Shown: one piece after another, positions 5,966 to 20,708 of the stretch
How the letters are laid out: each line of letters begins with the position of its first letter
How positions within the stretch are numbered: position 1 is the first letter of the stretch
Source of the DNA: an uncultured Pelagibacteraceae bacterium
GTDB taxonomy: Bacteria > Pseudomonadota > Alphaproteobacteria > Pelagibacterales > Pelagibacteraceae
DNA length: 50,586 bases
Assembly: GCA_902587435.1 (NCBI GenBank)
Contig: CACILF010000007.1
Location: 1 to 50,586, forward strand
Reading direction: 5' to 3'
The notes under the pieces: model-generated
Databases searched by the model: none
What the model was told of the DNA's origin: nothing
What the model saw: only the letters and a program-made list of their open reading frames with translations
Made by a program: the position numbers and the translations under genes

Positions 5966-6817
5966 TTAATAATTTGCTTTTATGACCATTATCAATCTAT
6001 TTAGCTGATCTAAATCTTTATATTCAAAAGTTACTTGCCCAGAGTTATTTTTCTTATTCCTAATAAACACTTTAATTCCGATTTTTTCTTCTATACTATT
6101 TTCTAGACTTGAAAGGTTCGGATTTTTGATTATCTTATTTTTACCTTTATAACTTTTTAACGATCTAACTAAGTTCTCTACCTGCCTTACTGATAGCTTT
6201 TTTTCTACAATTTTCTTTGCTAAAAAATGTGAGTTATCAAGCCCAACAAGCACTTTAGCATGTCCTTGGGAAATTTTATTTTCTTTGACTAACAAAATAA
6301 CTTCATCGGGCAGTGATAGTAATCTTAAGCAATTTGAAACATGCGCTCTGCTCTTTCCTATAAACTTTGATACTTTATCTTGATCGTAGTTAAACTCATC
6401 GATTAATCTTTTATAACCATTAGCTTCTTCTATTGGATTTAAATCGCTCCTTTGAACATTTTCAACAATTGCAAACTCTAATGATTTTAAATTATCCGCT
6501 TCAATTTCAAAAACCGGAACTTCATGAAGCCCCGCATTTTGAGCTGCTTGCCATCTTCTCTCTCCGGCAATTATTTCAAATTTATCACTTTGATTAGAAG
6601 ATTTTCTAACTATTATTGGCTGTATAATCCCTCTTTCTCTAATAGAATTTGTAAGTTCATCCATTTTTTCTTTATCAAAATTTTTTCTTGGCTGAAATTT
6701 GTTTCTGATAATTGAACTTATTGATATTTTATTTTTTATAGGCTTTGAATCTGCATCACCAATTAATGAAGATAATCCTCTACCTAATCCTTTTTTAGTT
6801 TTAAATGGATTCATCAT
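5966..6817 (-). CDS. parB: Chromosome-partitioning protein ParB
   Basis: The 283-residue CTP-dependent clamp binds parS and spreads along DNA to segregate origins. It begins with the family signature KKGLGRGLSSLIG, the segment that stimulates ParA. The CTP-binding domain shows AGERRWQAA (around residue 85) and ENVQRSDLNPIEEA. The helix-turn-helix (KVSKFIGKSRAHVSNCLRLLSLP) follows, then a linker and the C-terminal dimer domain. The first ATG of a doubled ATGATG overlaps the parA stop by four bases. Two parS sites lie 1.4-1.7 kb upstream in rsmG and mnmG. Confidence 0.96.
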   Translation of the reverse strand: MMNPFKTKKGLGRGLSSLIGDADSKPIKNKISISSIIRNKFQPRKNFDKEKMDELTNSIRERGIIQPIIVRKSSNQSDKFEIIAGERRWQAAQNAGLHEVPVFEIEADNLKSLEFAIVENVQRSDLNPIEEANGYKRLIDEFNYDQDKVSKFIGKSRAHVSNCLRLLSLPDEVILLVKENKISQGHAKVLVGLDNSHFLAKKIVEKKLSVRQVENLVRSLKSYKGKNKIIKNPNLSSLENSIEEKIGIKVFIRNKKNNSGQVTFEYKDLDQLNRLIMVIKANY

Positions 6818-7614
6818 GCGGCACTCTCCACTGGTTTATCTTGATCTAAAAATTCATCTGTGAATGTAAAATATGATTTACTACCTGGGCAAGCTTTATC
6901 GTAAAGTAGAACCGGGACCCCATGGGATGGGGCTTCTGACAGTCTTACATTTCTAGGCACTACTGTTTGATAAACTTTTTCTTTGAAATAATTTCTAGCT
7001 TCTTGTTCTACTTCGCCAGATAATTTATTTCTCTTATCATACATAGTGAGAAGGATACCGCGTATGCTTAAAGATGGGTTTAAGTTAGATTTGATCCTCT
7101 CTATTGTCTTCATCAATTGAGTAAGACCTTCTAAAGCAAAAAATTCTGTCTGTAGAGGGACTACGAGTTCATCTGAGGCAACTAATGCCATAATTGTTAG
7201 AAGGCTTAGTGATGGAGGGCAGTCAATGAGGATATAATCATATGATGGTCCAGAATCATTTAAAATAGAGGCTAATTCGTCTTTCAATTTAAAGGCTCTT
7301 CTACCATCTCCGGCGGTCTCTACCTCTAGGCCTGACAAATCAACATTTGAAGTTATCAAATTTAGATTATCAAACTTAGTTGATTGAACAACTTCTGAAA
7401 TTCTTTTATTCCCGTTAAGCACACTATAAATTGTTAGTTCAGAGTTTTCTGTATTGGATAATCCGAGTCCTGTTGTAGCATTTCCTTGTGGGTCAAGATC
7501 GATTACTAATATTTTTTTTCCTCTCATAGTTAAACCCGAAGCTAAATTTATTACTGTAGTAGTTTTCCCTACTCCACCTTTTTGATTAATTACTGAAATA
7601 ATTTTTTTATCCAT
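6814..7614 (-). CDS. parA: Chromosome-partitioning ATPase ParA (Soj)
   Basis: This 266-residue ATPase forms nucleoid-bound gradients that pull ParB-parS complexes apart. The deviant Walker A motif KGGVGKTTT is at residues 10-18, with signature Lys 10 and catalytic-loop Lys 15. The switch segment LDPQGNATTGLG follows, and Walker B reads YDYILIDCPPSLS. It has no N-terminal DNA-binding extension, so it is the chromosomal Soj type rather than a plasmid type Ia. It overlaps rsmG by 8 bases and parB by 4, so rsmG-parA-parB are translated as one unit. Confidence 0.97.
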   Translation of the reverse strand: MDKKIISVINQKGGVGKTTTVINLASGLTMRGKKILVIDLDPQGNATTGLGLSNTENSELTIYSVLNGNKRISEVVQSTKFDNLNLITSNVDLSGLEVETAGDGRRAFKLKDELASILNDSGPSYDYILIDCPPSLSLLTIMALVASDELVVPLQTEFFALEGLTQLMKTIERIKSNLNPSLSIRGILLTMYDKRNKLSGEVEQEARNYFKEKVYQTVVPRNVRLSEAPSHGVPVLLYDKACPGSKSYFTFTDEFLDQDKPVESAA

Positions 7615-8251
7615 TTTTTTTTTGTAGATTTGAAATCTTTACTACTAGTGACTGATCACTTGTTAAACTTTTTTTTTCTTCATAATCAAATTTCCATTTC
7701 TTTGATGACTCCTTTAGGATTTCTTTTCCACTTTTTCCTAAAAATAAAATTATGTATTTAAATTTTTTAAAATTCTTTGAAGCTATTTCAAAAATTACAG
7801 ACAGAGGTTTGAATGCTCTTGAAATTATAATGTCTGTTCGTAAATTCTTTTGCTCAAAAATATTTTTTTGTTTAATTTCAGTATTTAATTTAAATTTTTT
7901 TGAAATCTCTTTTAAGAATTTGCTCTTATGATAGCTTTTTTCATATAATATTACCTTAAATTCTCGTTTTTTAGGTTTCATCAAAATTGCCAAAACTATG
8001 CCAGGTAGTCCAGCACCTGACCCTAAATCAGTGCATATTTTAATATCATTTTTATCAATAAAATCAATTATTTGCGCGCTATCAAGAATATGTCTTGTAT
8101 TTATTGAATTTTCTGAGCTTGAACTTATTAGATTTATCTCTTTATTTTTTTTTATAATTGATAAACTATATTTATTAAGTTCATCCAATGTTTCACGTGA
8201 AACATTTTGAATTCTAAGTTTTGAGTTTTTTATAAAATCCGAATCAATCAA
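7607..8251 (-). CDS. rsmG: 16S rRNA (guanine527-N7)-methyltransferase RsmG (GidB)
   Basis: The 214-residue methyltransferase uses S-adenosylmethionine to modify G527 in the 530 loop of 16S rRNA. The SAM-binding motif reads [15 protein letters not shown], and the preceding [16 protein letters not shown] stretch is the usual RsmG signature. The N-terminal codons for [11 protein letters not shown] contain a perfect parS site, so this part of the protein is constrained by both translation and ParB binding. It overlaps mnmG by 4 bases (ATGA) upstream and parA by 8 downstream. Confidence 0.95.
8189..8204. other. parS: parS centromere site 1 (perfect palindrome)
   Basis: The sequence TGTTTCACGTGAAACA is a perfect 16-bp palindrome and identical to the well-known bacterial parS consensus bound by ParB. 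It lies within the first codons of rsmG, where it encodes the NVSRET peptide. parB itself is in the same gene cluster about 1.4 kb away. Binding is inference from consensus identity. Confidence 0.95.
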
Positions 8252-10119
8252 GCTATATGCTTAATAGACTTTCTTTTTAGATGAGACAACAAAATATATA
8301 CAGCAGCAGGGGTAATTCCATCTATTCTTAGAGCTTGACCCATAGTTTTTGGCCTTATTTTCTTAAATTTGGATTTAACCTCATTAGATAGGCCTGAAAA
8401 GATATCATAATTGATATTTTCTGGAATAATAAGGTTTTCATCCCTTTTAAAGGCTAAAATATCTGCATTTTGCTTCTTTAAATATCCCCTATAATGAGAA
8501 TTTATCTCCAACTGTTCATCAATTTCACGTGAAACATATGTAATTTCAGGCCAAATTTCACGTATTTTGGACATGTCTACTGATTTTTGGCTTAATATTT
8601 GAATAGCATTTCTTTTAATTCCATCCTTTGCGATATTTACTCCGAATTTAGACACTTTCGATGGAGAAATTTTTAATTTGTCCATTTTATTATGAATTTT
8701 TTTAAGTTGCGAGTGCTTCTCTAAGTATAATTCTTTTCTTTGATCATGCACTAGACCTATATCTATTCCTTTTTGAGTAAGCCTGGTATCAGCATTGTCA
8801 GATCTTAAGGATAGTCTATATTCGGCTCTGGAAGTAAACATTCTATATGGTTCTGCAACTCCTTTGGTAACAAGATCATCTATCATTACCCCTATATAGG
8901 CCTCAGATCTATCTAGAATAAATGGCTCACTTCCTTTTAAAGAAAGGGCTGAGTTAATTCCAGCAACAAGTCCTTGAGCAGCTGCTTCTTCATATCCTGT
9001 GGTTCCATTGATTTGACCTGCTAGATATAAGTTTTTAATTTTTTTAGTCTCTAAAGTTAAAAATAGTTCTCTAGGATCAACAAAATCATACTCAATAGCA
9101 TATCCGGGCCTTAGTATTTTAACATTCTCTAAACCATTGATTTTGCTACATATTTCTTGTTGAACTTCAGCTGGAAGCGATGTAGATATACCATTTGGAT
9201 AAACTGTATGATCGTTTATGCCTTCTGGTTCTAGAAAAATTTGATGTCTTTGCTTTTCTGCAAACTTAACAATTTTATCCTCTATTGATGGGCAATACCT
9301 TGGGCCAACTCCTTGGATGCTTCCTGAATACATGGCACTTCTTTTTATGTTCTTTGAAATAATTTTATGAACTGCCTCGTTTGTATAAGTCATCCGACAT
9401 GAAATTTGCTCATTTAAATTTTTTTTTGTTAAGAAAGAAAAAAAATAAGGATCATCATCTGCGAACTGTTCCTCTAAATTATTAAAATTAATTGTTCTAG
9501 AATCAAGTCTTGGAGGTGTGCCTGTCTTAAGTCTTCCAATTTTAAAATTAAGTTTTTTTAATTGTTCACTCAATCCTGTGGTTGGTTTTTCATTATACCG
9601 ACCAGCTGGAGTTTGTTTTTCACCTACATGTATCAAACCATTTAAAAAAGTGCCAGTTGTTAGTATTAGCCTTGATGTTTTAATTTTTTTTCCTGACTGT
9701 GTTATAAATCCTTTTATACTGTTTTTATCAAATAGAAACTCAATTACAGAATCTGAAAAAACGCTTAAATTACAGTAGTTTAAAAGTTTTTCCTGCATAT
9801 ATTTTTTATAAAGGTATCTATCGCTTTGCGTTCTAGGTCCTCTAACTGCTGGTCCTCTACTTCTATTTAGTAATCTAAATTGAATGCCAGATTTATCTGC
9901 TACATCGCCCATCACTCCATCTAATGCATCTATTTCTCTAACTAGGTGTCCTTTGCCTAATCCACCAATTGCTGGATTACAAGACATCTCACCTATTGTT
10001 TCAATTTTATTTGTGAACAATGCAGTATTAACACCTAATCTTGCTGAGGCTGAGGCTGCTTCACAACCTGCGTGCCCTCCTCCTATAATAACAACATCAA
10101 ATGTTAAATCATTTTTCAT
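8248..10119 (-). CDS. mnmG: tRNA uridine-34 5-carboxymethylaminomethyl modification enzyme MnmG (GidA)
   Basis: This 623-residue FAD protein works with MnmE to install the cmnm5 group on wobble uridine 34 of certain tRNAs. The dinucleotide-binding motif [10 protein letters not shown] is at residues 12-21. The family signatures [28 protein letters not shown] and the [19 protein letters not shown] stretch are all present, and length is standard. It leads a four-gene overlapping series with rsmG, parA and parB. A second parS-like site lies within its coding sequence near the 3' end. A possible -10 (TTATAAG, about 8 nt before the ATG) would give almost no 5' leader. Confidence 0.97.
8521..8536. 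other. parS: parS-like site 2 (14 of 16 match)
   Basis: AATTTCACGTGAAACA keeps the full 12-bp core palindrome TTTCACGTGAAA of parS and differs from consensus only in the two outermost left bases. It sits inside mnmG, 332 bp from the perfect site, and encodes part of VSREIDEQ. Multiple parS sites near the origin are normal. A further half-site lies 18 bp downstream (about 8554-8563), too degenerate to call. Confidence 0.82.
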
Positions 10120-11624: not shown

Positions 11625-13178
11625 TTATTTATAATCTAATTGTTTAAAGTATTTTTCTAAACTTTGAGTGTAGTGCTTGTTAGAATTGATAGATGTTTTG
11701 TATATTGGTTTTCTTGCTTGATATGCACTAACTGTTTTAATTATTGTTTTTTTACTTTGATGATGTTTTAAGCAATTTTTGTCCCAATCAAGTTCACAGA
11801 AATTTAAAAGTTTTCTAATCTCTGTCTCATTATTATTTACAATATTTTCATAATCAACTTCATATATAAAATCTCTATATATTTTTTTCCAAAATTTCAT
11901 GAGATCATTATATAAATTAAAATATTTTATAATCTCTGAAGGATCATATGTCCAATCCATATCTTTTGATGCAAAATTATTTTTGTAATTAGATAAAAAA
12001 GTATCTTTTAAATTTCTTTGACTATGGATTACTTTCGCATTTTTGAAGAATAATTTTATAAAACCTATCCAAATAAAATTTTGTGGTCCTTTATCTATTA
12101 TAACTGCAGAATTATTATTTAAATTGTTTAAATAACCAAAATATTTATCACTTATTTCATTATTATTTGAAAATTGTAATTCATTAATTTTTTGTGAAAG
12201 CAATTTATTTTCTTGAACAAAATTTGTATTGATTATTTGCCTTAAAAAGTCAAGTTCCCCAGCTCCAAAAACTTCCTGGTGAGCAGATAAAATTTGCTCT
12301 AACAATGTTGTTCCTGAACGAGGCAATCCTACTATAAAAATAATTTTTTTTGAATTATTTTCTTTCTTAATTTCATTTAGATCTAGTTTTTGAAAATAAT
12401 TCTTTATACTTTTAAATAACTTTTCATCAGATTTAAAATTATAATTTACCAATTCTTTTCTTTTTTTATTAGCCAATTCAAAGTATTTTATTGATAATTC
12501 ATAATTTTTCTGGTCGTCGTAAGCTTTTCCAATAGCAAATTCCAAATCAGATTTTTGTTTTTTTTGGAATTTATGATTCTTATTTAAATTAACCATTAAA
12601 GATAGGTTTGAGTTATTCTCATTATAATCATTTACTTTACTAATTGAAATATGAGCTGGTACAAAGTCAGGTTTGACTTTTAAAATATTATTAAAAATAT
12701 TATTAGCTTTACTAAATTCGCCCATGCTTTGGTAAACTGAGCCTAAATTTAGCCAAATATTTAAATCATTTTTTATAAGTTTAAGTGCATTTTCGTAAAG
12801 GTTAATTGAGTTTTTAAAGTCCAATAAAATATTTTTTAGCCGAGCATAGTTAACGAGTGCCGGAGTATTTTTGGGATCAAAATCTAGTATTTTTTTAAAA
12901 ATATCTTCAGCTTCTTTGTATCTACATAGAGAAATTAGGGAATTTGCTAGATTATTTTTATGTCCTGGGTTTTGTGGTTCAAGATTTATAGCTTTATTAA
13001 AATAAATAATTGAAGTTTCTATATTATTTAATCTTTGATGGGCTAACCCACATATATTATATAAATATCCTTTATCTTTGTTTTTTTTTAATAGTTTTTC
13101 TCCATCAGAAATTACTTTACTAAATTTTCCTAATTTTAATTCTTTTAAAAGTTGATCAACTTTTTTTTTTAAACTCAT
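11625..13178 (-). CDS. TPR-repeat sulfotransferase family protein
   Basis: The 517-residue product has about seven tetratricopeptide repeats in its first 250 residues (segments such as ALVNYARLKN and IWLNLGSVYQSMGEFSKA). A sulfotransferase domain follows. The PAPS 5'-phosphosulfate loop reads GLPRSGTTLLEQILSAH near residue 285, and the 3'-phosphate segment has RNLKDTFLSNY. No signal peptide or membrane segment is visible. It would transfer sulfate from PAPS to an unknown acceptor, perhaps a peptide or surface molecule docked by the TPRs. It interrupts the otherwise conserved mnmE-rho neighbourhood. A paralogue lies at 33734-35293 with the same layout and a shared RKPIYK C-terminal motif. Confidence 0.8.
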   Translation of the reverse strand: MSLKKKVDQLLKELKLGKFSKVISDGEKLLKKNKDKGYLYNICGLAHQRLNNIETSIIYFNKAINLEPQNPGHKNNLANSLISLCRYKEAEDIFKKILDFDPKNTPALVNYARLKNILLDFKNSINLYENALKLIKNDLNIWLNLGSVYQSMGEFSKANNIFNNILKVKPDFVPAHISISKVNDYNENNSNLSLMVNLNKNHKFQKKQKSDLEFAIGKAYDDQKNYELSIKYFELANKKRKELVNYNFKSDEKLFKSIKNYFQKLDLNEIKKENNSKKIIFIVGLPRSGTTLLEQILSAHQEVFGAGELDFLRQIINTNFVQENKLLSQKINELQFSNNNEISDKYFGYLNNLNNNSAVIIDKGPQNFIWIGFIKLFFKNAKVIHSQRNLKDTFLSNYKNNFASKDMDWTYDPSEIIKYFNLYNDLMKFWKKIYRDFIYEVDYENIVNNNETEIRKLLNFCELDWDKNCLKHHQSKKTIIKTVSAYQARKPIYKTSINSNKHYTQSLEKYFKQLDYK

Positions 13179-15004: not shown

Positions 15005-15994
15005 TTAAATATTTTTTTGAATTAAGTTTTTTAGTAAATTTATATGGTCATCATTATCATTTAGACATGGTATCATGTCGAAATTCTCACCCCCTGAATC
15101 CATAAAGCTTTTTTTGCCCTGTATTAATATTTCTTCTAATGTTTCAACACAATCAGAGGAAAAACCTGGGCATATCGTGAGGATATTTTTTTTTCCTTCC
15201 TTTGGTAAGTTTTCTAAAGTTTTATCTGTGTATGGTTGAAGCCACTCTTGTGGACCAAATCTAGATTGAAAGGTTGTTTTAATTTCAATGGATTTAAATT
15301 TTTCTGAAACTAATCTTGTGGTTTTGTGACAATAGCAATGATATGGATCTCCCTTATCAAAGTACTTTTTTGGTATTCCGTGGTAGGAAGCTAAAATTAA
15401 ATCTGGTTTCCAATTTATATTTTTTATTTTAACATTTATTGAATTTACTAAAGCATCAACATATAATGGATCTGACTCATAGTGTGGAATAATTTTTAAA
15501 GATGGCTGCCACCTCATATTCATTAAAGTTCGATATACTTCATCACAAACAGTTGCTGTAGTTGCGGCAGCATATTGAGGATAAAGAGGTAAAATTACAA
15601 GATTTTCACAGCCTTCTTCATTTAATTTTTTTATTTTACTTTTTATACTTGGGTTTCCATACCTCATAGCAAAATCTATAATTAGATTTTCATTTGAAAA
15701 AGATTTTGATAATTTTTCAGCCTGCTTTTTAGTGTAATACAGTAATGGAGATATATTTTCTTCTTTCCTCCATATCTCTTTATAAGCCTTGGCGCTTTTT
15801 GATGGTCGAAAATTGAGAATAAAAAGATTAAGTATTACTTGCCATATCATTGGATTTACTTCTATTACTCTTCTGTCTGATAGAAACTCTTTTAAATATC
15901 TTCTAACATCTAACCAACTAGTAGAGTCGGGGGTTCCTAAATTAATTATTAAAACTCCAGTCTTCCCGTATTTTATCTGAGGGTGTTTTTCCAT
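15005..15994 (-). CDS. hemH: Ferrochelatase
   Basis: The 329-residue enzyme inserts ferrous iron into protoporphyrin IX to make haem. It shows the N-terminal GVLIINLGTPDS motif, the active-site SYHGIP segment with its conserved His, and the CPGFSSDCVETLEE signature with the conserved Glu pair. Length fits the short bacterial form. Its start codon overlaps the hemE stop by one base (TAATG), so it is translated in series with hemE and hemJ. Confidence 0.97.
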   Translation of the reverse strand: MEKHPQIKYGKTGVLIINLGTPDSTSWLDVRRYLKEFLSDRRVIEVNPMIWQVILNLFILNFRPSKSAKAYKEIWRKEENISPLLYYTKKQAEKLSKSFSNENLIIDFAMRYGNPSIKSKIKKLNEEGCENLVILPLYPQYAAATTATVCDEVYRTLMNMRWQPSLKIIPHYESDPLYVDALVNSINVKIKNINWKPDLILASYHGIPKKYFDKGDPYHCYCHKTTRLVSEKFKSIEIKTTFQSRFGPQEWLQPYTDKTLENLPKEGKKNILTICPGFSSDCVETLEEILIQGKKSFMDSGGENFDMIPCLNDNDDHINLLKNLIQKNI

Positions 15995-16995
15995 TATTTA
16001 AAATCTCTAACTGTTTTTACTAGTTGTTCTACCATTTCAATTTTCGTTTCTGGTAAAATACCATGCCCAAGATTAAAAACGTAAGGGTGATCCTTAAAAA
16101 TTTGAAGATATTTTATTACTTCTATATTCAAGTTTTCCTTATCGGTTAATAGTACTTTTGGATCTAAGCCTCCTTGTATTGGTATTTGTATTTCATTAAC
16201 TATCTTTTTAGGATCAACATTATAATCAATATTAACCATATCGGGTTTAACAAACTCACAAAAATTTTTATAATCTTTTATTCCTCTAGGAAAGCAAATA
16301 ACAGGTACATCTAGTTTCCTAGCATGGTTTACAAGATTAAAGGTTGGTTCATAAATAAATTTGGAAATGTTGTCTTCTAATAATCCTGCCCAGCTGTCAA
16401 AAATTTGTATAATAGTTGCGCCCGCTTTTATTTGATTTTCAATATGAATTTTAAGGAATTTCTCAGTTAAAGATAATAATTTTTTTATAAATAATTTGTC
16501 ATTAAAAATTTCTTTAGAGAGAGATTTTTTTGGTGACATTTTATTAACCATATAAACTAAAATTGTCCACGGTGCTCCTACAAAACCAATTATATCTTTA
16601 TTTTTACATAAAGAATTGGAAGATATATTTGATATAGATTTATAAATAGGATCTAATTTTTTACTAAATTCATCTTCATTTATATTTGATATCAAATCTA
16701 AATCTAATTTACCTAATTTAGGTCCTAGGCCTTTTTCAAATTTCACTTCTTGGCCCAAACCATAAGGCAACATTAAAATATCGGAAAAAATTATTGCTGC
16801 ATCAAAATTAAATCTTTTAATTGGTTGTAATGTTATTTCAGATGATAAATTTTCATTTAAACATAGTTTTATAAAATCTGGATTTTTTGATCTAATTTCC
16901 CTAAATTCCGGCAAGTACCTTCCAGCTTGTCTCATTATCCAAATGGGATTTAATTTATGATTTTTATTAATTATGCAGTCTTGGATTGGAGTCAT
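15994..16995 (-). CDS. hemE: Uroporphyrinogen decarboxylase
   Basis: The 333-residue enzyme removes four carboxyl groups from uroporphyrinogen III to give coproporphyrinogen III. The family N-terminal signature PIWIMRQAGRYLPEFREIR carries the substrate-binding Arg residues, the Phe-Ser-Asp segment carries the catalytic Asp, and a C-terminal FNLGHGILPET is present. It is the first gene of the hemE-hemH-hemJ operon and is transcribed away from the adjacent AT-rich gap. In many Alphaproteobacteria hemE marks one side of oriC. Confidence 0.97.
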   Translation of the reverse strand: MTPIQDCIINKNHKLNPIWIMRQAGRYLPEFREIRSKNPDFIKLCLNENLSSEITLQPIKRFNFDAAIIFSDILMLPYGLGQEVKFEKGLGPKLGKLDLDLISNINEDEFSKKLDPIYKSISNISSNSLCKNKDIIGFVGAPWTILVYMVNKMSPKKSLSKEIFNDKLFIKKLLSLTEKFLKIHIENQIKAGATIIQIFDSWAGLLEDNISKFIYEPTFNLVNHARKLDVPVICFPRGIKDYKNFCEFVKPDMVNIDYNVDPKKIVNEIQIPIQGGLDPKVLLTDKENLNIEVIKYLQIFKDHPYVFNLGHGILPETKIEMVEQLVKTVRDFK

Positions 16996-17280
16996 ATAAT
17001 AATTATATATATAGTCTTTAGTATTAATTTTATATCCTGTTAATATAAGGTATTATTAATTCTTAACATTTTACCCACTAAATACTAACAGATAAAAATA
17101 ATAGAAAATTAAGACAAATAGCCTCTATTTTATAAGTTTTAGATTAAATAAATAATTGTGTATATTAATTATTAAGGTGTTTATTTATGTTAATAATTTA
17201 AAAGTTATTCAAAAAAAAAGATAAATAAAATATTTATTAATTTTTAACTTATTTATTAATTTATTATAAACACTTTATAC
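16996..17280. other. oriC: Putative chromosomal replication origin (oriC)
   Basis: No gene fits this 285-bp stretch. By hand count it is about 14% G+C, falling to about 9% in the right-hand 120 bp. Its neighbours hemE and ppsR, and the onward order maf-aroE-coaE-dnaQ-secB, are those that flank oriC in many Alphaproteobacteria. Genes diverge from it on both sides. Three sites match the DnaA box TTATCCACA at 7 of 9 positions: TTACCCACT (17071-17079), TGTGTATAT (17157-17165, reverse orientation) and TTATAAACA (17264-17272). A duplicated 13-mer resembles an unwinding element. Divergent hemE and ppsR promoters must also lie here. The origin call is inference from context plus composition; no perfect DnaA box is present. 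Confidence 0.72.
17231..17262. repeat. Tandem AT-only 13-mer pair, possible DNA-unwinding element
   Basis: TATTTATTAATTT occurs exactly at 17231-17243 and again at 17250-17262, offset by 19 bp. Each copy is free of G and C, and they sit at the ppsR side of the putative origin. Repeated AT-rich 13-mers next to DnaA sites are the typical form of a bacterial unwinding element. Chance repetition is easier in such skewed DNA, so the functional reading is tentative. Confidence 0.6.
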
Positions 17281-18102
17281 ATGAGTATTATACACGATAT
17301 CTATCTAATTTCGGACTCTACCGGGGAAACTATCGACAGGATATTTTTAGCATTAAAAGCCCAGTTTTCAAATATTGATTATAACCATCATCAGTTTTCT
17401 TTTACAAGAACTGAAAATCAAATTTTAAAAATTTTAGAATTAGCAAAAAAACAAAAAGAACCAATAATCCTATACACAATTGTAGATGATAAACTTGCAA
17501 AACATTTAGAAGAGAGCTCTAAGAAATTAAACATCCCGTGTTTTAGTGTTCTTGGAGATCTAATATCGAATTTTTCAAAAATTTTAAATCAAAGCGCCTC
17601 CCACATACCTAGCGGACAACACACCTTCGAAGAAAATTCTAAAAGAATAGAAGCTATTCAATTTACAATGACACATGATGATGGAAAAATGATTAAAGAT
17701 TTAGAAAAAGCAGATATTATTTTGCTTGGGGTTAGTAGATCAGGAAAAACGCCAACATCTATATATCTTGCAAATAGGGGTTATAAAACTTCAAACATAC
17801 CGATAATTAATGAAAACTCAATACCCGAAGTTCTAAAAAAAAATCCAAAATTAATATGTGTAGTAGGTCTAACAGTTGAACCTAAAAGATTAATTGATGT
17901 TAGAAAAAATAGAATGAACGCATTAAAAGAAGAACATGGTACGGATTATACAAATATTGATAAAATAGAAACTGAAATTAAAAAAGCGAAAGAAACTTTC
18001 AAAAAATATCAATGGCCAGTTATTGATGTCACTAGAAAATCAGTAGAGGAAACCGCAGCTTCAATTATAAAAATATATGAAATAAAAAATCAAAATGCAT
18101 AA
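17281..18102 (+). CDS. ppsR: PEP synthase/pyruvate phosphate dikinase regulatory protein (DUF299 kinase-pyrophosphorylase)
   Basis: The 273-residue protein matches the DUF299 family, which switches PEP synthase or pyruvate phosphate dikinase on and off by ADP-dependent phosphorylation and phosphate-dependent dephosphorylation. The N-terminal LISDSTGET motif and the P-loop-like GVSRSGKTPTSIYLANRGYK with the following NIPII are diagnostic. Its target enzyme is not in the window, so PpsR versus PDRP cannot be settled. It is the first gene right of the putative origin and overlaps maf by 8 bases. Confidence 0.92.
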   Translation: MSIIHDIYLISDSTGETIDRIFLALKAQFSNIDYNHHQFSFTRTENQILKILELAKKQKEPIILYTIVDDKLAKHLEESSKKLNIPCFSVLGDLISNFSKILNQSASHIPSGQHTFEENSKRIEAIQFTMTHDDGKMIKDLEKADIILLGVSRSGKTPTSIYLANRGYKTSNIPIINENSIPEVLKKNPKLICVVGLTVEPKRLIDVRKNRMNALKEEHGTDYTNIDKIETEIKKAKETFKKYQWPVIDVTRKSVEETAASIIKIYEIKNQNA

Positions 18103-18679
18103 AATTATTCTCGCATCCAGTAGCAAAGTTAGAAAAAAAATTTTAGATCAAAATGGAATTGAATGTAAAGTTTTCCCATCAAATGTAGATGAGGATTTAG
18201 CAAAAAAAAGTTTAATGAAAGAAAATGCTAGTCCAGAAATGATATCTAAAAACTTAGCAGAACTAAAGGCCAATAAAATAAGTTTAAAGTTTAATAATGA
18301 AATTGTGCTTGGAGCAGACAGCGTTATAGACATAAATAGTGAACTAATTTCAAAGCCAAAAAGTAGGGAAGAAGCATTTCAAATATTAAAAAAACTTAAT
18401 AGCAAAACTCATTATTTAATAAGTTCTATTTGTATATCAAAAAACGGTTCTATGATTTGGAATTACACAGATAAAGCAACTTTAACAATGAAAAATTTGA
18501 CAGTTAAAGAACTTAAAGAATATTTGTCAAAAATTACTGATGAAGCACTATATGCTTACAATGTCTATCAAATAGAGGGTGAGGGCAGATCTTTATTTTC
18601 AAAAATAGAGGGTGATGAAAATACCATTATGGGCCTTCCTATTAACAAAATTAAGGAATACTTAAGCAATTTATCATGA
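18095..18679 (+). CDS. maf: Maf-family nucleotide pyrophosphatase
   Basis: The 194-residue protein has the Maf fold signatures: an N-terminal ILASSSKVRKKIL (usually SASPRR), the catalytic VLGADSVID with its Asp, the KPKSREEA segment and a C-terminal YQIEGEGRSLFSKIEGD. Maf proteins hydrolyse modified or non-canonical nucleoside triphosphates and were first linked to septum inhibition. The change of Pro-Arg-Arg to Lys-Val-Arg in the first motif is mild and keeps basic residues. It overlaps ppsR by 8 bases and aroE by 4. Confidence 0.93.
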   Translation: MHKIILASSSKVRKKILDQNGIECKVFPSNVDEDLAKKSLMKENASPEMISKNLAELKANKISLKFNNEIVLGADSVIDINSELISKPKSREEAFQILKKLNSKTHYLISSICISKNGSMIWNYTDKATLTMKNLTVKELKEYLSKITDEALYAYNVYQIEGEGRSLFSKIEGDENTIMGLPINKIKEYLSNLS

Positions 18680-19464
18680 AAAAATATTTAGTTATAGGAA
18701 ATCCTATTGAACACTCATTGTCACCAAAACTTCACAACCATTGGTTAAAAGAAAATAATATTGAAGCTATCTATGATAAAAAAAAGCTTAATGAGAGTGA
18801 ATTAAAAAGTATCATTTCTGAAGTTAAAGAGGAAAAAATAAATGGTATTAATGTTACAGTACCATTTAAAAAAGCAATTATTCCGTTTTTAGACGAATTA
18901 AGCCCTGAAGCAAAAGAAACGCAATCGGTTAACACAATTTATCTACAAAATGGAAATATAATTGGTCACAACACAGATATAGCTGGGTTTGAATTGGCAA
19001 TTAAGTATGCCAAATTTGATCTTAATAATAAAAAAATTTTTATATTAGGTGCTGGGGGTGTGGCTCCCTCAATAATTTATGCTCTTAGAAAAATGAAAGT
19101 TTCAAAAATTTCACTTACCAACAGAACTAAAGAAAAAGCAGAAAGCTTAAAAAATTTATTTAAAGATCTTGAAATAGTTGAGTGGGGCGAAAGAATAGAT
19201 TTTGATATGATTATAAATGCAACAAGTATTGGTTTAAAAAATGAAGATGGTCTAAATTTTGATTATTCTGCGAATGGTCCTGATAAATATTTTTATGATG
19301 TTATTTATAATCCAAAAGAAACTCTTTTTTTAAAAAGAGCAAAATTATTTGGCAATAAAACAGAAAATGGAAAAATGATGTTTATATATCAAGCTCATCA
19401 ATCATTTACTATTTGGAATAAAGTAATGCCAAAACTAGATGACGAAACAATAAAATTAATTTAA
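18676..19464 (+). CDS. aroE: Shikimate dehydrogenase (NADP+)
   Basis: The 262-residue enzyme reduces 3-dehydroshikimate in aromatic amino acid synthesis. The substrate-binding motif GNPIEHSLSPKLHN, catalytic Lys in NVTVPFKKAI and conserved NTD in GHNTDIAGF are all present. The nucleotide-binding loop reads GAGGVAPSIIYAL, and the NRT segment after it suits NADP. It shares a 4-base overlap with maf and its stop directly abuts the coaE start. Confidence 0.96.
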   Translation: MKKYLVIGNPIEHSLSPKLHNHWLKENNIEAIYDKKKLNESELKSIISEVKEEKINGINVTVPFKKAIIPFLDELSPEAKETQSVNTIYLQNGNIIGHNTDIAGFELAIKYAKFDLNNKKIFILGAGGVAPSIIYALRKMKVSKISLTNRTKEKAESLKNLFKDLEIVEWGERIDFDMIINATSIGLKNEDGLNFDYSANGPDKYFYDVIYNPKETLFLKRAKLFGNKTENGKMMFIYQAHQSFTIWNKVMPKLDDETIKLI

Positions 19465-20040
19465 ATGATAAAAATTGGCATTTTAGGAGATATTGGGTCT
19501 GGGAAGACATTTGTAGCAAATCAATTTGGATATCCTGTATTTAATGCAGATATAGAAGTATCCAAAATATATAAAAATAATAAAAATTGTTTTAAGATAT
19601 TAAAAAAAAATTTTCCAAACGATGTACTTTCTTTTCCAATAAATAAAAAAGAAATTTCTAAATTAATACTATCAAACAAAAAAAATTTAAAAAAAATAAA
19701 TAAAATAGTGCACCCTATTGTGCGTGTTGAAATGAATAAATTTATTAATAAAAATAAAAAAAAGAAAATGATTGTTTTGGATATTCCTTTGCTTTTAGAA
19801 AATAAAATAAAAAATGAAGATTTTATTCTTATCTATGTAGATGCAAAAAGAAAACAGATTATTAAAAATTTTAAAAAAAGAAAAAACTTTAATTTAAAAA
19901 TAATTAAATTATTAAAAAAATTTCAATTATCGCTAGATTATAAAAAGAAAGTAGCAAATTTCATTATTAAAAATAATTTTAAAATGAAGCCAGTTAAAAA
20001 AAGTGTTAAGTTAATAAAAACCAAAATTTTATATAAATGA
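19465..20040 (+). CDS. coaE: Dephospho-CoA kinase
   Basis: The 191-residue kinase phosphorylates dephospho-CoA in the last step of coenzyme A synthesis. The P-loop reads GDIGSGKT, followed by VFNADIEVSKIY (usual DAD/NADI), HPIVRVEM and the DIPLLLEN segment typical of CoaE. The C-terminal half is exceptionally Lys/Asn/Ile-rich, so conservation fades, but the QLSLDYKKKVANFIIKNN stretch still matches the family's adenine-side motif. The position between aroE and dnaQ is the standard one. It overlaps dnaQ by 4 bases. Confidence 0.92.
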   Translation: MIKIGILGDIGSGKTFVANQFGYPVFNADIEVSKIYKNNKNCFKILKKNFPNDVLSFPINKKEISKLILSNKKNLKKINKIVHPIVRVEMNKFINKNKKKKMIVLDIPLLLENKIKNEDFILIYVDAKRKQIIKNFKKRKNFNLKIIKLLKKFQLSLDYKKKVANFIIKNNFKMKPVKKSVKLIKTKILYK

Positions 20041-20708
20041 AAGAAGTAGTTTTAGATACAGAAACCACAGGCCTATCAGTAAAAGATGGACATAGAATTG
20101 TTGAGATAGGGTGTATTGAGTTAGATAATTTAATTCCTAATTCAAATAATTTTCACTGTTATTTAAATCCTGAAAGAAAAGTTTCTGAAAAAGCATTAGA
20201 AGTTCATGGATACACAGATAAGTTTTTGGCAGATAAAAAAAAATTTGGAGAAATAGCTGATGAGTTTCTTTTATTTATAAAAGATAAAAGATTGATTATA
20301 CACAATGCAGAATTTGATATTTCTCATTTGAATAATGAACTTCAAATAGCTGGAAAAGAAAAAATAGATATAAAAAATGTAATTGATACATTGGATATAG
20401 CTAGAGATAAATTTCCAGGATCTCAAATTAGTTTAGATGCTCTGTGTAAAAGATTTAGAATAGATAACTCAAAAAGAAAAAAACATACCGCATTAATTGA
20501 CTGTGAATTATTAACAAAAGTTTATATAAATTTAATTGATCAAAAAGAACCTTCGTTAAACTTTTTTTCTGGGGATGTAGACAATACAGATATTAAATTT
20601 GAAATTGCAAATAATTATTCAAAAAAAATAATCAAACCTTCCGAAGAAGAAGTAAAGTTACATAAAAATTTTCTAAAAAATTTTCTTAAAAAAAATTATT
20701 TTAGTTAA
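20037..20708 (+). CDS. dnaQ: DNA polymerase III subunit epsilon (3'-5' proofreading exonuclease)
   Basis: The 223-residue protein has the DEDDh exonuclease motifs in order: DTETTGL (Exo I, residues 7-13), HNAEFDISHLN (Exo II) and the HTALIDCELL segment (Exo III) with its catalytic His. It proofreads for the replicative polymerase. A PSLNFF peptide after the exonuclease domain could serve as a beta-clamp contact, followed by a basic tail that may bind the alpha subunit; both are inference. It ends the origin-proximal operon and overlaps the convergent secB by 8 bases. Confidence 0.94.
   Translation: MKEVVLDTETTGLSVKDGHRIVEIGCIELDNLIPNSNNFHCYLNPERKVSEKALEVHGYTDKFLADKKKFGEIADEFLLFIKDKRLIIHNAEFDISHLNNELQIAGKEKIDIKNVIDTLDIARDKFPGSQISLDALCKRFRIDNSKRKKHTALIDCELLTKVYINLIDQKEPSLNFFSGDVDNTDIKFEIANNYSKKIIKPSEEEVKLHKNFLKNFLKKNYFS

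Follow-up and report, generated by a model that had tools for sequence, protein, structure and literature searches.

Where does replication begin on a SAR11 chromosome? Pelagibacteraceae (SAR11) are the most abundant bacteria in the sea. Their growth in the ocean has been estimated from origin-to-terminus read coverage, and the coverage of SAR11 metagenomes is reported to be V-shaped, with one origin and one terminus but with no origin placed in the excerpts of that source (PMC9589681). Our literature search, which covered excerpts of papers, found no description of a SAR11 oriC sequence. We analyzed a stretch of 50,586 nucleotides (the window) from a genome of 955,973 bases in 45 contigs that is 71% complete; by ppsR, its nearest named relatives are Pelagibacteraceae (83 to 86% identity, 8 records). 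A preliminary description of the window had proposed the gap between hemE and ppsR, at positions 16996 to 17280, as a candidate chromosome origin. Conservation of DnaA boxes in 53 loci and, in part, the skew of related genomes support that proposal. Judged from sequence comparison, the gap is very probably the oriC of this SAR11 chromosome, a shortened and AT-drifted form of the hemE/COG1806 origin of Alphaproteobacteria.

The gap spans 285 bp and has 13.7% G+C, against 27.7% for the window overall, so its AT content exceeds the genome average. It is the lowest-GC stretch of its length in all 50,586 bases, tied only by stretches starting at 16992 to 16998, and the longest of the eight gaps of at least 60 bp that separate main open reading frames (ORFs). 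None of the listed ORFs of at least 80 amino acids overlaps it. We propose the whole gap, assigned to neither strand, as oriC on the basis of this low G+C, its constant length, and the box cluster in relatives. The main ORFs point away from the gap on both sides, leftward over 16995 to 5966 and rightward over 17281 to 20708. The left boundary gene is hemE (15994 to 16995, minus strand; PF01208, E = 1.3e-78), and the right one is ppsR (DUF299/COG1806; 17281 to 18102, plus strand; PF03618, E = 4.7e-87), followed on the plus strand by maf-aroE-coaE-dnaQ (18095 to 20708; ORF list and Pfam). Leftward from the gap, the order is hemE, ferrochelatase, UPF0093, a TPR-sulfotransferase gene, rho, mnmE, mnmG, parA, and parB. 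A Pfam scan of the flanking ORFs other than that at 7607 to 8251 identified URO-D (hemE), ferrochelatase, UPF0093, Rho, MnmE, GidA/MnmG, ParA, and ParB to the left of the gap; to its right, the scan identified Kinase-PPPase (ppsR), Maf, AroE, CoaE, and a DnaQ-like exonuclease. The partitioning genes parB and parA occupy 5966 to 7614 on the minus strand (Pfam), and two parS sites lie nearby on the plus strand, a perfect 16-mer at 8189 to 8204 (8.8 kb from the gap) and a 14/16 match at 8521 to 8536 (8.5 kb). The preliminary description had reported a gene-free gap of about 14% G+C, the divergence of the genes, their names from hemE through dnaQ, and parAB with two parS sites, and all of these were borne out. 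A third parS-like site (14/16) at 970 to 985 was absent from it; none of 100 shuffles reached three sites in the window. The TPR-sulfotransferase gene, at 11625 to 13178, lies between mnmE and rho.

Is such a site known elsewhere in the class? Of the 29 class loci read (from 29 of the 78 genomes with ppsR, among 114 searched), 27 had hemE next to ppsR in divergent orientation, in agreement with the earlier view of this gene order as the oriC neighborhood of Alphaproteobacteria. An origin between hemE and COG1806 has been demonstrated by experiment in Caulobacter, with predictions for Rickettsia and relatives, and predicted origins without CtrA sites are also reported; this source does not mention Pelagibacter (PMC1914354). 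The Cori of Caulobacter crescentus, between hemE and CC0001/COG1806, shares with the gap both boundary genes, an AT content above that of the genome, and DnaA boxes. However, it is 404 bp long rather than 285 bp, and it carries five CtrA sites and one IHF site, none of which was found by consensus in the gap (PMC1914354, in excerpt). The Rickettsia origins, which are in silico predictions, likewise have the same boundary genes and are 81.5 to 82.8% AT, but they measure 383 to 396 bp, compared with 285 bp and 86% AT here (PMC1914354, Table 1). By eye, many of the 27 class gaps outside the family contain runs of TAG, TTG, or TGG followed by CCTGTG. A class-wide profile built from 21 of these 27 gaps failed to pick the gap in the window and in the relatives G012, G143, and G037; the G-rich triplets of the class score poorly in AT-rich DNA. 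The resemblance to the class therefore rests on position and on reading by eye. The kind of origin site is already known, and the box spelling and the short length are a lineage variant of it.

Is the gap conserved within the family? We placed hemE and ppsR in 53 of 55 family loci, the window included; L037 and L058 were dropped because they had no usable gap, and L006, a copy of the window, had been excluded beforehand. With gap ends extrapolated from tblastn alignments, the length was 261 to 288 bp in all 53 loci, while hemE identity ranged from 90% down to 49%. Their G+C content ranged from 12.2 to 22.3%, the window being the fourth lowest. Within the clade of the window (8 sequences), invariant columns made up 0.78 of the seven candidate boxes described below and 0.60 of the rest of the gap, as plain proportions.

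Scanned with the Escherichia coli DnaA-box consensus, the gap gave a best match of 7/9 and no site with one mismatch or fewer, just as the preliminary description had reported. Matches of at least 7/9 in the window were barely above chance (258 versus 220 ± 15 in shuffles, with 3 of 100 shuffles reaching 258), and boxes called by that consensus alone therefore carry little weight. We then looked for the spelling used by the family. The top 9-mer of an unsupervised count over the 53 gaps was TTATTAACA, found in 44 of them versus 3.2 expected from dinucleotide shuffles; TTATTCACA (17) and TTATCAACA (14) were also among the top five. The pattern TTATNMACA, picked after the alignment was inspected, occurred 131 times versus 8.6 ± 2.9 in shuffles, with at least one copy per gap; these shuffle statistics ignore relatedness among the loci. 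One-letter variants showed TTAT, A7, C8, and A9 to be fixed, position 5 to be loose, and position 6 to be A or C, hardly G or T. By its letters, TTATTAACA is a relative of the DnaA box.

A family box matrix was built from the other 45 sequences, with the clade of the window left out, and it revealed a cluster of lineage-consensus DnaA boxes in the gap. Four sites reached at least 7 bits versus 0.54 expected (0 of 300 shuffles reached four), and seven reached at least 4 bits versus 2.1 expected (P = 0.003); over the whole clade, 37 sites were found versus 4.9 expected. Here, too, the shuffles take no account of relatedness. Candidate box 1 (ATATTAACA; 17038 to 17046, minus strand, 8.2 bits) holds an R1-like position adjoining a run of triplets, in what we take to be the orientation of E. 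coli R1. Its CCTGT context is conserved in the clade of the window, and nearly conserved in the other family of the order. Candidate box 2 (TTCTTAACA; 17060 to 17068, 8.8 bits) and the weak candidates box 3 (TTACCCACT; 17071 to 17079, 4.8 bits) and box 4 (ATACTAACA; 17082 to 17090, 4.2 bits) follow on the plus strand. Candidate box 5 (ATATACACA; 17157 to 17165, 6.0 bits) and candidate box 6, an exact family consensus (TTATTAACA; 17188 to 17196, 12.0 bits), are on the minus strand, and candidate box 7 (TTATAAACA; 17264 to 17272, plus strand, 9.4 bits) ends 8 bp before ppsR. The alignment among relatives that had been suggested as a check on the candidate boxes thus came out in their favor across the 53 loci. 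The accompanying view that this would be an unusually degenerate origin fared less well: the sites follow the family consensus, mostly TTATTAACA, and they look lineage-specific rather than degenerate, their family-specific spelling having made them appear broken by the standard consensus. The same spelling could be the reason that SAR11 would go unrecognized in searches for TTATCCACA-like boxes.

How specific to the gap is this cluster? In G012, a single-contig genome from the genus of the window, the gap was the sole cluster of three TTATNMACA in 963,202 of 1,343,202 bases scanned. In G143, a single-contig genome from another genus of the family, four copies beside ppsR, one of them over its start codon, formed the sole three- or four-box cluster in the 300 kb scanned. 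The gap of G174 held two copies, the sole pair in 190 kb; the gap of G016 likewise held two copies, and the 160 kb scanned there contained one other such pair. The gap of G037, from the other family of the order, held none, and 12 of 20 gaps in that family were without any TTWTNMACA. In the genome of the window itself, TTATTMACA showed no genome-wide enrichment (66 copies, compared with 70 of the reversed pattern); one copy lies in the gap.

Does the gap also offer a place for DnaA to open the duplex? Beside box 1, at 17019 to 17033 on the plus strand, are five DnaA-trio-like triplets (TAG, TAT, TAA, TTT, and TAT), four of which are TAN, with A in the middle. In the family alignment, this position has the strongest 3-periodicity of T among 313 overlapping windows, flanking codons included: the fraction of T was 0.92 in phase versus 0.28 and 0.39 off phase, which exceeds that of the flanking codons. 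TAN accounted for 0.55 of in-phase triplets versus 0.09 and 0.13 in the other phases (52 of 53 gaps). In the other family of the order, T keeps the same phase (0.83 versus 0.21 and 0.47; 20 gaps), but TAN makes up just 0.35, and many triplets are TTG or TTT. In-phase triplets adjoining a DnaA box resemble the bacterial basal unwinding system of DnaA box and DnaA-trios as described in excerpts of PMC8287927 and PMC6669920, although that system has a run of TAG where the gap has the mixed run above, and the box beside the triplets here is three mismatches from TTATCCACA. Whether a run of at least three NAN lies within 16 bp of a box (TAG, TAT, and TAA at 17019 to 17027, 10 bp from box 1) depends on acceptance of the lineage box, because the published rule allows two mismatches to TTATCCACA for a sole box; three NAN in a row also arise easily in AT-rich DNA.

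From these features we infer DnaA binding, the end that opens, helicase loading, and fork departure, as follows. DnaA would bind TTATYMACA-type boxes arrayed across the gap, and DnaA on box 1 would load a filament onto the triplets. The filament would open the AT-rich hemE-side end (16996 to 17033), where the helicase would enter, and two forks would depart, leftward through hemE-rho-parAB and rightward through ppsR-dnaQ. The proposed unwinding element is the AT-rich stretch on the hemE side (16996 to 17018, neither strand), selected from a stability scan together with the triplets. Windows starting at 16994 to 16995 rank within the six least stable of the 50.6 kb at window lengths of 30 and 50 bp. 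However, the least stable 50-bp (starting at 17220) and 100-bp (17179) windows of all are on the ppsR side of the gap; the proposed opening site is more stable than this end, which counts against the opening model. It was the triplets that led us to favor the hemE-side end.

Has the initiator changed along with its boxes? The FGG that precedes the recognition helix was missing in all 25 family DnaAs read (24 with F[SA]N and one with FTG). It was retained in 12 of 12 DnaAs from the other family of the order and in 28 of 30 from the class, the 30 being the best scoring of 110 genomes and thus biased towards consensus. One tentative reading, which we consider possible but rather doubtful, is that the initiator-origin code of Pelagibacteraceae has been altered, with the FGG turn lost, recognition at position 6 relaxed, TTATTAACA as the standard box, and the system partly insulated from the canonical box. 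The locus would be a natural case of initiator and sites perhaps drifting together under AT pressure. On balance, we find it plausible that the gap is the origin but that its boxes owe their spelling only to AT mutation pressure acting on weak sites, with the specificity of DnaA unchanged. Contact residues were placed by a match to 1j1v (residues 373 to 460 to chain 1 to 88, assumed ungapped), whose numbering we take to start at 374. The six base-contacting residues named in the excerpts of PMC7561715 are intact in the family DnaA. In TTWTN[x]ACA, position 6 was C in 22 and A in 7 sites of the class, and A in 120 and C in 36 sites of the family, where the background GC/AT ratio is about 0.2 rather than about 1.0; corrected for background, the enrichment of C6 at least equals that of A6 (34-fold versus 18-fold). 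The shift from C to A at position 6 may thus come partly, perhaps wholly, from base composition. Against unchanged specificity, C8 and TTAT stay fixed although the AT pressure on them is the same as on position 6, where A is accepted, and the FGG is missing from all 25 family DnaAs read yet kept in 12 of 12 from the other family. We do not claim a changed initiator specificity as fact, given the C6 enrichment and the intact contact residues.

Could the gap simply be a promoter region shared by the divergent hemE and ppsR, its 9-mers ordinary regulator sites and its AT-richness the drift of a spacer? The genes do diverge from the gap, and promoter-like matches do exist there, though at chance level (4 in 16900 to 17400 versus 4.7 expected); promoters and terminators showed no excess over shuffles. 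Natural exchanges of the neighboring genes speak against this explanation. In G143, rho rather than hemE faces ppsR across the gap (C1, about 141.3 to 141.7 kb), and the sole hemE match is at 718 kb, about 577 kb away, yet the box cluster and the skew switch remain beside ppsR. No credible ppsR turned up in 24 genomes from the other family of the order (G037 to G060; one match at E = 7.5e-4), yet a gap of 262 to 275 bp between hemE and maf, with in-phase triplets, was present in 20 of 20 loci read. The gap persists after the move of hemE and after the loss of ppsR, and neither neighbor alone therefore explains its conservation. Moreover, the 9-mer is a relative of the DnaA box with triplets adjoining, and G143 and G012 show a strand switch near the gap that would be unexpected for a promoter. 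We consider the shared-promoter explanation very unlikely. In the one locus of the other family that was read gene by gene, maf-aroE-coaE-dnaQ stay beside the gap.

Does strand composition also point to the gap as the origin? The genome of the window is incomplete and fragmented, and we therefore examined skew in five relatives instead. Over the stretches read, the raw cumulative GC minima were located at +28.6 (G012), -18.6 (G143), -17.6 (G174), -34.1 (G016), and -38.5 kb (G037) from the gap, that is, less than 40 kb away in all five and nearer than dnaA at 64 to 73 kb. Since SAR11 skew follows gene direction, we fitted third-position skew with gene strand as a covariate (200 permutations). 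In G143, a gain of 22.6 placed the best switch at +2 kb (gap, 21.5; dnaA, 8.2; 0/200 permutations); in G012, a gain of 16.4 placed it at +10 kb (gap, 14.1; dnaA, 4.4; 0/200), with a wide bootstrap interval (1,185 to 1,335 kb). In G174, the fit was significant (0/200) but of opposite sign at the gap, with its best position at -46 kb and gains of 9.2 at the gap and 0.0 at dnaA. The fit for G016 was of opposite sign and not significant (150/200; best at -2 kb, 5.7 at the gap versus 2.6 at dnaA), as was that for G037 (43/200), whose best position lay on the maf side at a distance of 56 kb, closer to dnaA than to the gap. The skew fit thus favors the gap over dnaA in four of five relatives, sharply in G143 only. 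The cumulative-skew check suggested in the preliminary description therefore came out mixed: the raw minima in all five relatives and the switches in two of them agree with the gap, whereas three of the strand-controlled fits were opposite in sign or insignificant. For the same reasons we rejected skew as sole proof of the origin. As a proxy, it would support in part the initiation of replication at the gap in vivo. Comparison of sequences shows where the gap lies, that its boxes are conserved, and that its triplets are periodic; in two single-contig relatives, it also shows a strand switch near the gap.

An origin near dnaA, 64 to 73 kb off, as in many bacteria, is very improbable: one SAR11 paper does start its alignments at DnaA (PMC12421898, in excerpt), 4 of 60 G012 bootstrap replicates fall at or below 1,205 kb and reach the distance of dnaA, and G037 has a gain of 4.0 at dnaA versus 3.8 at the gap, neither significant, but the gains in the other four relatives, two of them from fits of opposite sign and one of these insignificant, are lower at dnaA, and G012 has no three-box cluster in the 12.5 kb around dnaA. 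An origin placed for the family, at 64 to 73 kb from dnaA in the relatives examined, would provide coverage-based growth estimates with a fixed anchor and with a marker usable on fragmented genomes.

In G012 and G016, dnaA is 64 to 66 kb away on the hemE side; in G143 and G174, it is about 73 kb away on the ppsR side. Inversions containing the gap have swapped flanks between lineages (G174, G143, and G037 versus G012, within 110 kb). Their midpoints, by eye, are about 5 kb either side of the gap, and we set aside origin-symmetric inversion as an argument; the G174-G012 inversion spans just about -5 to +15 kb, so its symmetry proves little. In the genome of the window, dnaA was not found, which incompleteness can explain: DnaA domain IV was present in 46 of 61 genomes of the relatives search, and among the 18 with completeness of at least 90% and contamination of at most 5%, it was present in 17.

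Finally, we searched the gap for other sites. CtrA sites (TTAA-N7-TTAA) were absent from the gap of the window, and across the 53 family gaps they numbered 31 versus 15.3 in shuffles, a twofold excess. The IHF consensus, which we take to be WATCARNNNNTTR, had 0 matches in the gap of the window and 8 versus 4.5 in the 53 gaps, and it is a weak discriminator in AT-rich DNA. No Rfam family reached its gathering score in 16800 to 17500, and nothing similar to the DNA of 16980 to 17300 was found among phage records. The block TTAAGACAAATAGCCTCT at 17109 to 17126 is nearly invariant in the clade of the window (8 sequences); it matched none of the DnaA, CtrA, and IHF consensus sequences applied here, and we did not notice it in the other gaps of the family. 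GANTC, the CcrM site, numbered zero in the gap of the window and was rare in the 53 family gaps, with 3 copies versus 8.2 ± 2.9 in shuffles; a CcrM homolog has been reported in SAR11 (PMC3973325, in excerpt).
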